Shown: one piece after another, positions 662-7,811 of the stretch
Layout of the letters: every line of letters starts with the position of its first letter
How positions within the stretch are numbered: position 1 is the stretch's first letter
Source: a bacterium
Lineage (GTDB): Bacteria > Planctomycetota > UBA11346
Assembly (NCBI GenBank): GCA_020049615.1
Contig: JAIFKN010000073.1
Span: forward strand, 1 to 12,801
Length of the DNA stretch: 12,801 bases
Direction: 5' to 3'
Made by a program: the position numbers and the translations under genes
The notes under the pieces: model-generated
Seen by the model: only the letters and a program-made list of their open reading frames with translations
The model's database searches: none
What the model was told of the DNA's origin: nothing

Positions 662-717
662 GGCCAGCGCCCAGCGGCCAGCGCCCAGCGGCCAGCGCCC
701 AGCGCCCAGCCACCAGC
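662..717. repeat. Heptanucleotide tandem array 1 (8 units)
   Basis: Eight head-to-tail 7-bp units: GGCCAGC and GCCCAGC alternate for the first six, then GCCCAGC and a terminal CACCAGC. There are no indels. The array ends two bases before the gatB stop codon (complement of CTA at 720-722). It lies between the inverted-repeat leader and the 3' end of gatB. Confidence 0.95.
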
Positions 718-719
718 GC

Positions 720-2159
720 CTACCCCAACTGCTTCAAAATCTCCGCCTTCACCGCATTCGGCTCCGCCTTGCCTCCGCTCAGCTTCATCGTCGCGCCGAC
801 CAGGCGGCCGATGGCCTTCTCGTTGCCGCCCTTGATGTCAGCGACGGCCTTGGGCTCGGCGGCGATGACCTGGGCGACCCAGCCGGCCAGGGCGCCGGCG
901 TCCTGCACCTGGATCATGCCGCGCTTGGTGAAGTAGGCCTCGGGCGCCTCGCCGGAGGCGAGCAGCGCGCCGAATTCGCCCTTGGCGACGACGCGGGCGA
1001 CCTTGCCGCCATCGACCAGGGCGATGACCGCCGCCATGGTCGCCAGCGGCGCGACCTCGGTCAGCGGCCTGCCGGTCTCGTTGGCCAGGCGGACCGCCTC
1101 CTCGCGCGTCCAGTTGGCGGCCAGGCGCGGCTTGGCGCCGAGACCGATCAGCGCCTCGACATAGTCGGCGGTGGCCCGCTCCATGGTCAGCTCGTAGGCG
1201 GCGGCCGGCTCGATGGCGAAGGCGGTGGTGAAGCGGCTCTGGCGCACGCGCGGCAGTTCGGGCATCTGCGCGTTGATCTCGGCGACGCGGGTGGCGGGCA
1301 GGTACAGCGGCGGCAGGTCGGGGTCGGGGAAGTAGCGGTAGTCGGCCGCGTCCTCCTTGCTGCGCATCGCCCGCGTGACCTTGGCGTCGGGATCCCACAG
1401 CACCGTGGTCTGCACGATCTCGGCCCCGCGGCCGGCGCGGTACAGCCCGGTCTGGCGCGCGATCTCGTGGGTGATCGCCGCCTCGACGTTCCTGAACGAG
1501 TTGAGGTTCTTGATCTCGACGCGGGTGTTGAGCTTGGCCTGGCCGACCGGGCGCACGCTGACGTTGGCGTCGCAGCGCAGGGTGCCCTCCTGCATCTCGC
1601 AGTCCGACGCGCCGACCCAGCGCAGGGTGCGGCGCAGCTCGGTCAGGTAGGCGAAGGCCTCGGCCGCGCTGTGGATCTCGGGCAGCGAGACGATCTCGAC
1701 CAGCGGCACGCCGGCGCGGTTGAGGTCGACCTCGGAAAACGGGCCGCGCTCCTGGTGCACCAGTTTGCCGGCGTCCTCCTCCATGTGGATGCGGATCAGG
1801 CCGATGTCGCGGTGGCTGCCGTCAGCCAGTTCGGCGCGCACCGAACCGCCGAGGCAGTACGGCTCATCGTACTGGCTGATCTGGTAGCCCTTGGGCAGGT
1901 CGGGATAGAAGTAGTGCTTGCGGTCGAACTTCGACCGCTCCTGCACCCGGCAGCCGAGGGCGAGCGCGGCGCGCACCGCCAGTTCGACCGCCTTGGCATT
2001 GATCACCGGCAGCGCCCCGGGCAGGCCGAGCACAGTCGGGTCGATCATGGTGTTCGGCGCCTCGCCAAAGCTGTTGCCGGCGCCGCTGAACATCTTGGTC
2101 ACCGTCTTCAGCTGGCAGTGGACCTCCAGCCCGATCACCGCCTCGTATTCCGTGCTCAT
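720..2159 (-). CDS. gatB: Aspartyl/glutamyl-tRNA(Asn/Gln) amidotransferase subunit B
   Basis: GatB is the kinase/transamidase subunit of the GatCAB complex, which converts Glu-tRNA(Gln) and Asp-tRNA(Asn) to Gln-tRNA and Asn-tRNA in the cytoplasm. The 479-residue length is typical. Visible landmarks are IGLEVHCQLKTVTKMFSGA near residues 9-27, YFYPDLPKGYQISQYDEP at 83-100, and the family signature VDLNRAGVPLVEIVS at 144-158. The C-terminal third is the usual helical tail/YqeY-like tRNA-binding domain, ending EILKQLG. gatA and gatC are not in this window. It lies downstream of the CE7 hydrolase in the same direction, separated by 153 bp that hold heptanucleotide array 2. No clear Shine-Dalgarno precedes the ATG. 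The TAG stop lies two bases from array 1. The start is chosen from the family N-terminus. Confidence 0.97.
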   Translation of the reverse strand: MSTEYEAVIGLEVHCQLKTVTKMFSGAGNSFGEAPNTMIDPTVLGLPGALPVINAKAVELAVRAALALGCRVQERSKFDRKHYFYPDLPKGYQISQYDEPYCLGGSVRAELADGSHRDIGLIRIHMEEDAGKLVHQERGPFSEVDLNRAGVPLVEIVSLPEIHSAAEAFAYLTELRRTLRWVGASDCEMQEGTLRCDANVSVRPVGQAKLNTRVEIKNLNSFRNVEAAITHEIARQTGLYRAGRGAEIVQTTVLWDPDAKVTRAMRSKEDAADYRYFPDPDLPPLYLPATRVAEINAQMPELPRVRQSRFTTAFAIEPAAAYELTMERATADYVEALIGLGAKPRLAANWTREEAVRLANETGRPLTEVAPLATMAAVIALVDGGKVARVVAKGEFGALLASGEAPEAYFTKRGMIQVQDAGALAGWVAQVIAAEPKAVADIKGGNEKAIGRLVGATMKLSGGKAEPNAVKAEILKQLG

Positions 2160-2205
2160 GGCGCGGGAGGGTATGGACCCGATCAGCGACTCCAGTGGAG
2201 CCGGC

Positions 2206-2310
2206 GGCCGGCGGCCAGCGGCCAGCGGCCAGCAGCCAGCGGCCAGCGGCCAGCGGCCAGCGGCCAGCGGCCAACGACCAGCGACCAGCGACCAGCGACC
2301 AGCGACCTGT
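2206..2310. repeat. Heptanucleotide tandem array 2 (14 units plus a degenerate one)
   Basis: Units run in strict 7-bp register from GGCCGGC (2206) through eight GGCCAGC-type copies, with one AGCCAGC at 2234. A GGCCAAC at 2269 precedes four GACCAGC copies (2276-2303) and a decayed GACCTGT (2304-2310). The array is thus split into a GG half and a GA half. It ends two bases before the stop codon of the CE7 hydrolase and starts 46 bases upstream of the gatB start codon. Confidence 0.95.
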
Positions 2311-2312
2311 CC

Positions 2313-6249: not shown

Positions 6250-6274
6250 GGCCAGGGTAGCAGGATCAGTCTGC

Positions 6275-6379
6275 GACCAGCGACCAGCGGCCAGCGGCCA
6301 GCGGCCACCGACCACCGACCAGCGGCCACCGACCAGCAACCAGCGACCAGCGACCAGCAACCAGCCACCAACCACCAGC
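6275..6379. repeat. Heptanucleotide tandem array 4 (15 diverged units)
   Basis: Fifteen 7-bp units in perfect register with mixed types: GACCAGC (6), GGCCAGC (2), GGCCACC (2), AACCAGC (2), GACCACC, CACCAAC and CACCAGC. The CCA core at positions 3-5 and the final C never change. The array ends five bases before the cinA ATG and therefore forms its immediate 5' leader. It is the most diverged of the five arrays. Confidence 0.93.
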
Positions 6380-6384
6380 ACCCC

Positions 6385-7611
6385 ATGCCCATCGCCCGCA
6401 TCCTCGCCATCGGCGACGAACTGATCCTTGGCCGCACCGTCGACTCGAACAGCGCGCGCATCGCCCAGCGCCTGTCCGACGCCGGCCTGACCGTTGACTA
6501 CGCGCGCACGGTCGGCGACGGCGAGGACCAGATCGTCGCCGCCCTCCGCACCGCCTGCCGCGGCGCGGCCCTGGTGCTGTGCAGCGGCGGTCTCGGCCCG
6601 ACCGAGGACGACCGCACGCGCCACGCCCTCGCCCGCGCCATGCGCTCGCCGCTGGTCGAGCGACCCTCGGCCTGGCGCCACATCACCCGCCTGTACGCAC
6701 AGTTCCGCCCCGGCGCGCCGGTGCCCGAGGTCAACCGCCGGCAGGCGCTGTTCCCGGCCGCCGCCAGGATGCTGGCGAACGATCGCGGCACCGCGCTCGG
6801 CCTGCTCGGCCAGGTCGGCACCTGCTGGGTCGCCTGCCTGCCGGGCGTGCCGCACGAGATGGAGGCGATGGTGGACCGGCTGCTGAAGCAGCTCCCGCGC
6901 CTGGTGCCCGGGCTGCGCGCCCCGAGCGTGGGCGAGCTGTGGTTCGCCGGCCTCGGCGAATCGGCGGCGCAGGAGCGCATCCCCGGACTGCTGTCGGAGC
7001 GCAACCCGCTGGTCGGCATCACCGTCAGCGAGCTCGGCCACACCACCCTGCGCGCGGTCGGCACCCCGGCGCAGGTGCGCAAGCGCATCGGCCAGCTGCG
7101 CGCCGCGCTGGAGCCATGGCTGCTGCCCAGGTCCGGCCTGGCCGCGAGCCTGGTGCACGAGCTGGCCGCGGCCGAGGCGACCATCGCCTGCGCCGAGAGC
7201 TGCACCGCCGGCCACGCCGCGGCGCAGATCCTGGCGGTGCCCGGCGCCTCGGCGGTGCTGCGCGAGTCGCTGATCGCCTACCACGCCGCGGTGAAGACCG
7301 CCCGGCTGGGCGTGCCTGCGGCGCTCATCCGAAAGCACGGCGTGGTCAGCGAGGTGGTGGCCCGCGCCATGGCCGAGGGCATGCGGCGTGCCGCCGGTTC
7401 GACCATCGCCGTCGCCACCACCGGCCTGGCCGGGCCCGACGGCGGCACGGCGGAGCTGCCGGTGGGCACGGTGTGGGTGGCGGCCGCGACCGCGACGAAG
7501 ACGACCTCCCGCAAGGCGTTCATCCGCGGCTCGCGCGCGCGGGTGCAGCAGCGGGCGGCGGCCGAGGCGCTGCTGGAGGCGTGGAAGGCGTGGCAGGGGA
7601 TCGATCGCTGA
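6385..7611 (+). CDS. cinA: CinA family protein (competence/damage-inducible protein; NMN amidohydrolase)
   Basis: A 408-residue two-domain CinA protein of normal length. The N-terminal molybdopterin-binding-like domain shows IGDELILGRTVDSNS at 9-23 and CSGGLGPTEDDRTR at 66-79; in studied members it has ADP-ribose pyrophosphatase activity. The C-terminal CinA/PncC domain shows CAESCTAGHAA from about 267 and TTGLAGPDGGT near 346, followed by LPVGTVWVA. This domain deamidates nicotinamide mononucleotide to nicotinate mononucleotide in NAD salvage. Historically the gene is linked to competence and recA in some bacteria, but no recA is present here. The ATG follows directly on heptanucleotide array 4 and has no Shine-Dalgarno, so its translation start may be leaderless or SD-independent. 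The family N-terminus supports this start. Confidence 0.95.
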   Translation: MPIARILAIGDELILGRTVDSNSARIAQRLSDAGLTVDYARTVGDGEDQIVAALRTACRGAALVLCSGGLGPTEDDRTRHALARAMRSPLVERPSAWRHITRLYAQFRPGAPVPEVNRRQALFPAAARMLANDRGTALGLLGQVGTCWVACLPGVPHEMEAMVDRLLKQLPRLVPGLRAPSVGELWFAGLGESAAQERIPGLLSERNPLVGITVSELGHTTLRAVGTPAQVRKRIGQLRAALEPWLLPRSGLAASLVHELAAAEATIACAESCTAGHAAAQILAVPGASAVLRESLIAYHAAVKTARLGVPAALIRKHGVVSEVVARAMAEGMRRAAGSTIAVATTGLAGPDGGTAELPVGTVWVAAATATKTTSRKAFIRGSRARVQQRAAAEALLEAWKAWQGIDR

Positions 7612-7643
7612 ACAGCCGCCTGCATTGAAGCTGGAAGCAACGG

Positions 7644-7811
7644 AGCCAGCGGCCAGCGGCCAGTGGCCAGCGCCCAGCGGCCAGCGGCCAGCGCCCAGCG
7701 GCCAGCGGCCAGCGGCCAGCGGCCAGCGCCCAGCGGCCAGCGGCCAGCGCCTAGCGGCCAGCGGCCAGCGGCCAGCGCCCAGCGGCCAGCGGCCAGCGGC
7801 CAGCGGCCAGT
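7644..7811. repeat. Heptanucleotide tandem array 5 (24 units, the longest)
   Basis: Twenty-four units in strict register begin with AGCCAGC (7644) and continue mostly as GGCCAGC. GCCCAGC is interspersed at 7672, 7693, 7728 and 7777, with GCCTAGC at 7749 and GGCCAGT at 7658 and 7805. The array fills most of the gap between cinA and the promoter of the isomerase gene. The interspersion of GC units every three to five copies hints at duplication of multi-unit blocks. Confidence 0.96.

Follow-up and report, generated by a model that had tools for sequence, protein, structure and literature searches.

Heptanucleotide arrays of a planctomycete contig probably belong to a family of intervening-sequence-like cassettes with inverted repeat arms

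The window studied here, a whole stretch of 12,801 nucleotides (GenBank assembly GCA_020049615.1, contig JAIFKN010000073.1), comes from a planctomycete, as all taxon-named relatives of its GatB are Planctomycetota. Five tandem arrays of a 7-bp unit lie between its genes. At the left edge, beside array 1, stand two convergent genes for four-helix-bundle proteins of the 23S rRNA intervening sequence protein family (23S_rRNA_IVP, PF05635; hereafter IVP), the outer one cut by the window edge. The original prediction had described the arrays; the two IVP genes, and the tie between IVP genes and inverted heptamer arms, were absent from it. We propose that the arrays probably belong to a family of cassettes resembling the intervening sequences (IVSs) of rRNA, in which an IVP (S23) gene sits between inverted, complementary arms of short repeats.

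All five arrays, called with Tandem Repeats Finder (Table 1), have a period of 7, as first described. Counted as NNCCANC, arrays 1 to 5 hold 9, 13, 12, 17 and 21 units, 72 altogether against the 73 given before. The single consensus GGCCAGC fared less well than the period: only array 3 is pure GGCCAGC, and array 4 has the exact heptamer in 2 of its 17 units. The arrays exceed chance, with 19 matches to four consecutive RRCCAGC units in the window and none in 200 dinucleotide shuffles. CCAGC lies on the plus strand in all five, next to genes in both orientations. Five of the seven gene gaps between 493 and 8830 are occupied, but not "nearly all" gaps, since the divergent gap at 5286-5376 and the convergent gap at 8656-8829 contain no array. 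Array 1 reaches the gatB stop codon. The heptamer units have no stop codon in any frame, and open reading frames (ORFs) of up to 1620 aa therefore cross arrays; one such shadow ORF, at 453-5315, spans three of them and is a trap for automatic annotation.

An S23p/IVP ORF, as carried by IVSs, is present at 161-493, where PF05635 scores above its cut-off. The 62-aa piece at 1-189 scores 29.6 bits, short of the 33.8 required. The locus is flanked by protein genes and does not lie in a 23S rRNA gene, and no Rfam family matched in the window at the gathering score. The IVP gene also scores under the threshold of the gene calling used for the window and for placing arrays in G001, a planctomycete metagenome-assembled genome with a GatB 96% identical to that of the window. 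With the window IVP protein as query only five ORFs were found; the Pfam profile PF05635 was used for the IVP scans. Homologues of the convergent pair occur as pairs in G001. The leader of the window IVP gene folds into a long hairpin (z −7.7 against mononucleotide shuffles), as do 18 G001 leaders (z −2.9 to −7.2, same shuffles), and RNAalifold predicts 27 pairs across these 19 leaders, 7 of them with compensatory changes. Two leader types match two IVP types, the stem being kept and the sequence different.

IVP genes and short tandem repeats are linked. PF05635 was found in 12 of 14 genomes selected for having arrays and in none of 14 controls; its frequency in wider draws was 48/99 in Planctomycetota, 45/61 in Bacteroidota, 22/120 in Pseudomonadota and 29/78 in the family of genome G657. 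When arrays of periods 6-9 were sought within 250 bp upstream and 150 bp downstream of a gene, 18 of 21 G001 IVP genes had one, against 2 of 41 other ORFs, and a heptamer array lay no more than 250 bp upstream of 18 of the 21. The corresponding counts were 18/44 against 13/167 in Planctomycetota, and 5/30 against 0/4 in Bacteroidota and 9/34 against 0/1 in Pseudomonadota, where the loci were short and the control ORFs too few. The 40 Planctomycetota loci were hand-picked among the matches listed, high scores first and one or two per genome, with G001, G003 and G004 excluded; those of the other two phyla were the strongest matches, plus L150 and L152, which come from the array-bearing genomes at the centre of the draws. 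The share of bases in arrays falls steeply with distance from the IVP gene: over the first three 100-bp zones it is 7.1, 4.4 and 2.4% in Planctomycetota (0.16-0.40% beyond), 3.6, 4.0 and 2.6% in Bacteroidota (0-0.44% beyond) and 9.4, 1.6 and 0% in Pseudomonadota (0-0.21% beyond), for loci with gene coordinates, that is, without 25 loci from the IVP scan of array-bearing genomes. In a small sample, 20 IVP-bearing planctomycetes (292 kb) had 14 arrays of periods 6-9, and 10 IVP-free ones (73 kb) had none. No known RNA family was found at the gathering score in 20 sources. A genome-level tie through the CCAGC pattern was considered and set aside: all four Planctomycetota carriers among 99 have IVP genes, which counts little because that draw is centred on G001, and G001, G003 and G004 came up through their arrays. 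The GGGAATC pattern, present in 1 of 369 genomes in the class of G007, was likewise dropped at this level.

At most IVP loci of four groups, the repeats on the two sides of the gene are inverted relative to each other. We took the downstream flank of each locus as its reverse complement and aligned the upstream flank of that locus to it (hit at p<=0.01), using loci with a single IVP gene and at least 80 bp on each side, which left out 4/40, 3/30 and 8/30 loci of the three phyla and 6/15 of G001. Inverted flanks were found at 25/36 loci in Planctomycetota, 19/27 in Bacteroidota, 15/22 in Pseudomonadota and 13/16 in the family of G657, compared with 2/36, 1/27, 2/22 and 0/16 when the downstream flank was taken from another locus; other ORFs of the planctomycete loci gave 2/161. 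The arms also have a polarity. Among the 65 loci whose arms score 28 or more, 61 have an upstream arm in which G exceeds C on the coding strand, one has the opposite bias and three have equal amounts; for regular arrays alone, G-rich polarity prevails 17:5 upstream and is reversed, 17:3, downstream. The arm unit varies by locus and lineage, with GGGAATC at several IVP cassettes, but the two arms of one locus match, as for AGTAGGGG/CCCCTACT in L445.

At one site, the junction between accB and accC, the IVP gene and its arms share one pattern of presence and absence. By coordinates, an IVP match lies directly before accC in 13 of 78 genomes from the family of G657. The sequence was read for 8 of these 13 and for 17 of the 49 IVP-free genomes, the latter with high AccC similarity. 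In the eight occupied junctions, about 435-470 bp comprise a GGGAATC-type arm, the IVP gene and a GATTCCC-type arm; the left arm begins 4-6 bases past the accB stop, and the right arm abuts the accC start codon in seven of the eight. In L472, the junction checked for domains, their order is Biotin_lipoyl, 23S_rRNA_IVP, Biotin_carb_N. Among the IVP-free junctions, 15 of 17 have 2-22 bp from the accB stop to the accC start and no repeats, and none of these 15 carries an array or hairpin pair. The accB motif gave no score for the remaining two, of which L487 appears clean on inspection and L493 has another upstream sequence. At this site, gene and arms thus behave as one unit.

The arrays are not limited to this contig. 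In G001, three-unit matches, counted with overlaps, number 2573, with 1127 and 1446 on the two strands; the reversed pattern used as a control gave 679, since it also accepts GACCAGC arrays. Arrays occupy orthologous junctions in G001, and two of them also in G126 (GatB 81% identical to the window), which speaks against an assembly artefact. The counterpart of array 2 forms the end of two G001 contigs (C166 and C199). At the place of array 3 the window has 12.7 units, G001 6 and G126 5. At that of array 4 there are 15 units in the window, 24 + 7 in G001 around an extra GDSL/CE2 esterase gene, and 4 in G126; at that of array 5, 24 units in the window, 14 plus a GGAAGCT array in G001, and no array in G126. 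The esterase gene (CE2_N/GDSL; L302 on C199, 2923-4473) was gained or lost between arrays, the window having one array there. The window carries the IVP pair and array 1 at the gatB end; the corresponding place in G001 shows an array, part of an IVP leader and an inverted array but no IVP gene, and the leader piece points to gene loss there. Several G001 IVP copies are homologous to the window IVP region as far as 717-722, which extends the match into the arrays.

These data agree with the original prediction in so far as the repeat is amplified in the lineage, is mostly intergenic and has a spread that calls for explanation, yet they do not bear out a single lineage-specific repeat: a scan of genome contigs with the RRCCAGC pattern found at least 119 stretches, and many phyla were among the matches listed. 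Nor do arrays lie between almost every gene pair genome-wide. Sampling the initial 15-20 kb of each of the 23 largest contigs of G001 (445 kb) gives 11 arrays (0.25 per 10 kb), and 20 contigs of all sizes contain 16 period-7 arrays in 231 kb (0.69 per 10 kb). Several G001 contigs end in arrays, so the assembly is interrupted there, and array-rich parts are probably under-represented in the samples. The 231-kb sample had no arrays of periods 5, 6 or 8-13, and order-2 Markov surrogates of 43 loci had none at all. The claim that arrays never lie inside a gene holds in that they are mostly intergenic, but 3 of the 11 and 4 of the 16 G001 arrays fall mainly within called coding sequence; some of these may be frames running through stop-free arrays. 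G001 also has a second heptamer family, GAACCAC/GTTCGTG, in stretches of ~32 bp (L341 4171-4201, L346 13661-13693, L349 9802-9834, L353 4492-4523). Three of its contigs (C255, C290 and C310; L356, L358, L359) have 45-47% GC against ~70% elsewhere, and the bin is probably mixed.

That IVP genes and inverted repeat arms form one cassette is, to us, very likely, and array 1 is likely an arm of the IVP pair at 1-493. The cassette arms would be short tandem repeats, mostly of 7-8 bp, inverted and mutually complementary. In RNA the arms would pair, with the IVP gene in the loop, and the arm stem would join the ends of the neighbouring genes, so that insertion into an operon would do little harm, by analogy with rRNA IVSs, which are cut out by RNase III. 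The window unit forms many arrays in G001 that have no IVP gene beside them. Arrays 2-5 could correspondingly be solo arms, or copies seeded from arms, in which slippage and recombination change the unit number; on balance we lean slightly towards their derivation from the IVP cassette system. A role of the IVP protein in spreading solo arrays is conceivable, though we consider it rather unlikely. Equally tentative is the wider idea that the tandem heptamers scattered over many bacterial genomes were left behind by a single old and selfish IVS/IVP family, whose protein would bind paired arms and help to plant solo arrays, as RAYTs keep REPINs, and whose arm hairpin would let cassettes live in operons and rRNA genes.

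Several observations weigh against the cassette interpretation. Arrays 2-5 carry no IVP remnant, and BLAST against G001 gives IVP or leader matches only at window positions 1-722; the distal arm of the IVP pair at 1-493 falls beyond the window edge. From the arrays outwards the linkage is weak, as an IVP gene is found in 2 of 119 array loci, in one of them 2.5 kb away, and the window unit occurs in 4 of 99 Planctomycetota genomes, so that most IVP-bearing genomes are without it. Taken by itself, period 7 shows a weak enrichment in the Planctomycetota draw (7/44 against 10/167, p 0.04); periods 5 and 10-13 are enriched near these IVP genes too (6/44 against 1/167), which means that the unit length is not strictly 7 in this set. 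The flanks also show raised direct similarity (10/36 in Planctomycetota, 5/27 in Bacteroidota, 6/22 in Pseudomonadota, 2/16 in the family of G657). In G001 itself the inverted-flank test is uninformative, with 4/9 loci positive and 5/9 in the control, because the loci share units. A simple two-arm scheme does not account for the convergent IVP pairs of G001 (L265, L274), whose two outer arrays share a strand. Finally, we know of no spreading activity of IVP proteins.

Part of this evidence would be expected if the arrays arose by replication slippage, which is favoured at 7 bp, with arrays 2-5 unrelated to IVP genes and the cassettes merely carrying arrays of their own. Slippage is the published explanation of heptamers (PMC4692102, PMC4679880; these and the papers below are cited for part of their text). 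At all three places that can be compared, the window and G001 differ in unit number, and the rarity of IVP genes at array loci also fits. However, slippage alone leaves unexplained why one unit family, of period 7 only, stands at many unrelated places of one genome, and why IVP genes are surrounded by inverted complementary arms with a polarity. We regard it as a doubtful account of the whole.

The order of events could also be the opposite, with inverted array pairs forming hairpins and IVP genes inserting into their loops, as in rRNA helices, where rRNA IVSs are indeed located (PMC4990558). The gene-less array, leader piece and inverted array of G001 could be read as such a target, yet the leader piece points to gene loss, and an array or hairpin pair is seen in 0 of the 15 scored empty accB-accC junctions; we consider an origin of this kind improbable. 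Still far less probable is that the arrays are regulatory or chromosome-organising signals under selection, such as a binding platform, Chi-like sequences or segregation sites. The common strand of the five window arrays and the array-free divergent promoter gap are what such signals might show, but G001 has matches on both strands and few arrays on large contigs, and the unit is not conserved between lineages. A Chi-like or segregation signal was dropped on account of the two strands in G001.

If the cassette interpretation is correct, it bears on repeats that have so far been ascribed to polymerase slippage or regulatory roles. Should many heptamer arrays be the ends of IVS-like cassettes, the orphan IVP family, at the frequencies given above, would be placed in a context. 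How rRNA intervening sequences arose, a question dating from their discovery, could then be studied at protein-coding junctions that are occupied in some genomes and empty in others, and the filling of genomes by short repeats without a known transposase would become testable.

The other genes of the window are listed in Table 1. The TIM-barrel gene (7919-8655) has an apparent ATG start at 7919, and its continuation from 8008 seems to lie in a different frame, suggestive of a frameshift or sequencing error. The last gene has internal repeats of 9-60 bp at 11157-11325, in a TPR/He_PIG protein linker, apparently with no relation to the arrays.

Table 1. Genes, leader and heptamer arrays of the window
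Feature	Position	Strand	Remarks
23S_rRNA_IVP gene (four-helix bundle), 3' end	1-189	+	Cut by window edge; convergent with next IVP gene; iterated profile E 6.6e-19
23S_rRNA_IVP gene, 110 aa	161-493	-	PF05635 71.1 bits, cut-off 33.8; match to PDB 2gsc (XCC0516)
IVP gene leader	494-660	-	Long hairpin, end ~10 nt 5' of start codon; shuffle z, covariation
Array 1	664-720	+	Period 7, 8.1 copies; between IVP leader and gatB stop codon (720-722)
gatB	720-2159	-	
Array 2	2200-2304	+	Period 7, 15.0 copies; between esterase and gatB genes
Acetyl-xylan-esterase-like gene	2313-3284	-	
Array 3	3299-3387	+	Period 7, 12.7 copies; pure GGCCAGC
L-fucose isomerase gene	3450-5285	-	
AraC-type regulator gene	5377-6249	+	
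Array 4	6273-6379	+	Period 7, 15.3 copies; mixed GACCAGC/GGCCAGC/AACCAGC/GACCACC
cinA	6385-7611	+	
Array 5	7645-7810	+	Period 7, 23.7 copies
TIM-barrel gene	open 8008 to 8655	+	
BatD/TPR group	8830-12799	-	

Among known systems, REPIN/RAYT also has a gene between inverted short repeats, and numerous copies without the gene in the same genome. There the gene encodes a transposase, RAYT, and the REPs are single palindromes, whereas the window unit is a 7-bp tandem repeat and not a palindrome; to our knowledge IVP proteins have no enzyme activity, unlike RAYT. No RAYT (Y1 transposase) Pfam match was found among the ten window ORFs, to which this search was confined, G001 not being included. Cyanobacterial STRRs are tandem intergenic heptanucleotides like the window arrays, and the stem of the Nostoc tRNA-Leu intron likewise contains heptanucleotides, comparable to the repeats in an RNA stem considered here. 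The STRR sequences are different, however, and the host, judged by its GatB relatives, is a planctomycete and not a cyanobacterium. Diversity-generating retroelements pair an Avd-type protein with a reverse transcriptase, and no reverse transcriptase accompanies the four-helix-bundle gene among the ten window ORFs. As a motor, a reverse transcriptase was rejected because it is not consistently present: of 8 genomes that bear IVP genes or are related to such genomes, only 4 have RVT_1; in G001 it is on C3 and C20, neither of which is among the IVP contigs.

The heptamers GGGAATC of Xanthomonas and GGGGAYT of Nostoc are genome-wide, mainly non-coding, variable in unit number and in some cases inverted (PMC4692102), and GGGAATC is also the arm unit at several of the IVP cassettes described above. 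They differ from the window in their unit, are seen as G-quadruplex repeats and generally have no tie to insertion sequences (PMC4692102). In Beggiatoaceae, intergenic arrays are abundant as in the window, but the unit is TAACTGA and they lie mostly upstream of start codons (PMC4679880). Geobacter metallireducens has tandem 8-mers and 7-mers paired on opposite strands at variable spacing, similar to IVP arms, although these pairs are interpreted as binding sites of global regulators (PMC2700814). The available main texts of these three papers do not contain the term "four helix", and the portions of PMC4692102 and PMC4679880 at hand make no IVP link. A limited search of the openly accessible literature found no published tie of heptamer arrays to IVP genes outside rRNA.

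The closest relative is the 23S rRNA IVS itself, one example of which is described as a selfish element of 428 nt with an S23p ORF and terminal inverted repeats, which form a 28-bp stem cleaved by RNase III; tandem heptamers of varying number lie 5' of the ORF (PMC4990558). The cassettes share with it the IVP/S23p gene, a similar size at accB-accC, the terminal inverted repeats, and heptamers before the ORF whose unit number varies between strains (PMC4990558). Unlike the rRNA element, they lie between protein genes, their arms are themselves tandem arrays, and the lineage of the window adds a long leader hairpin and many solo arrays.

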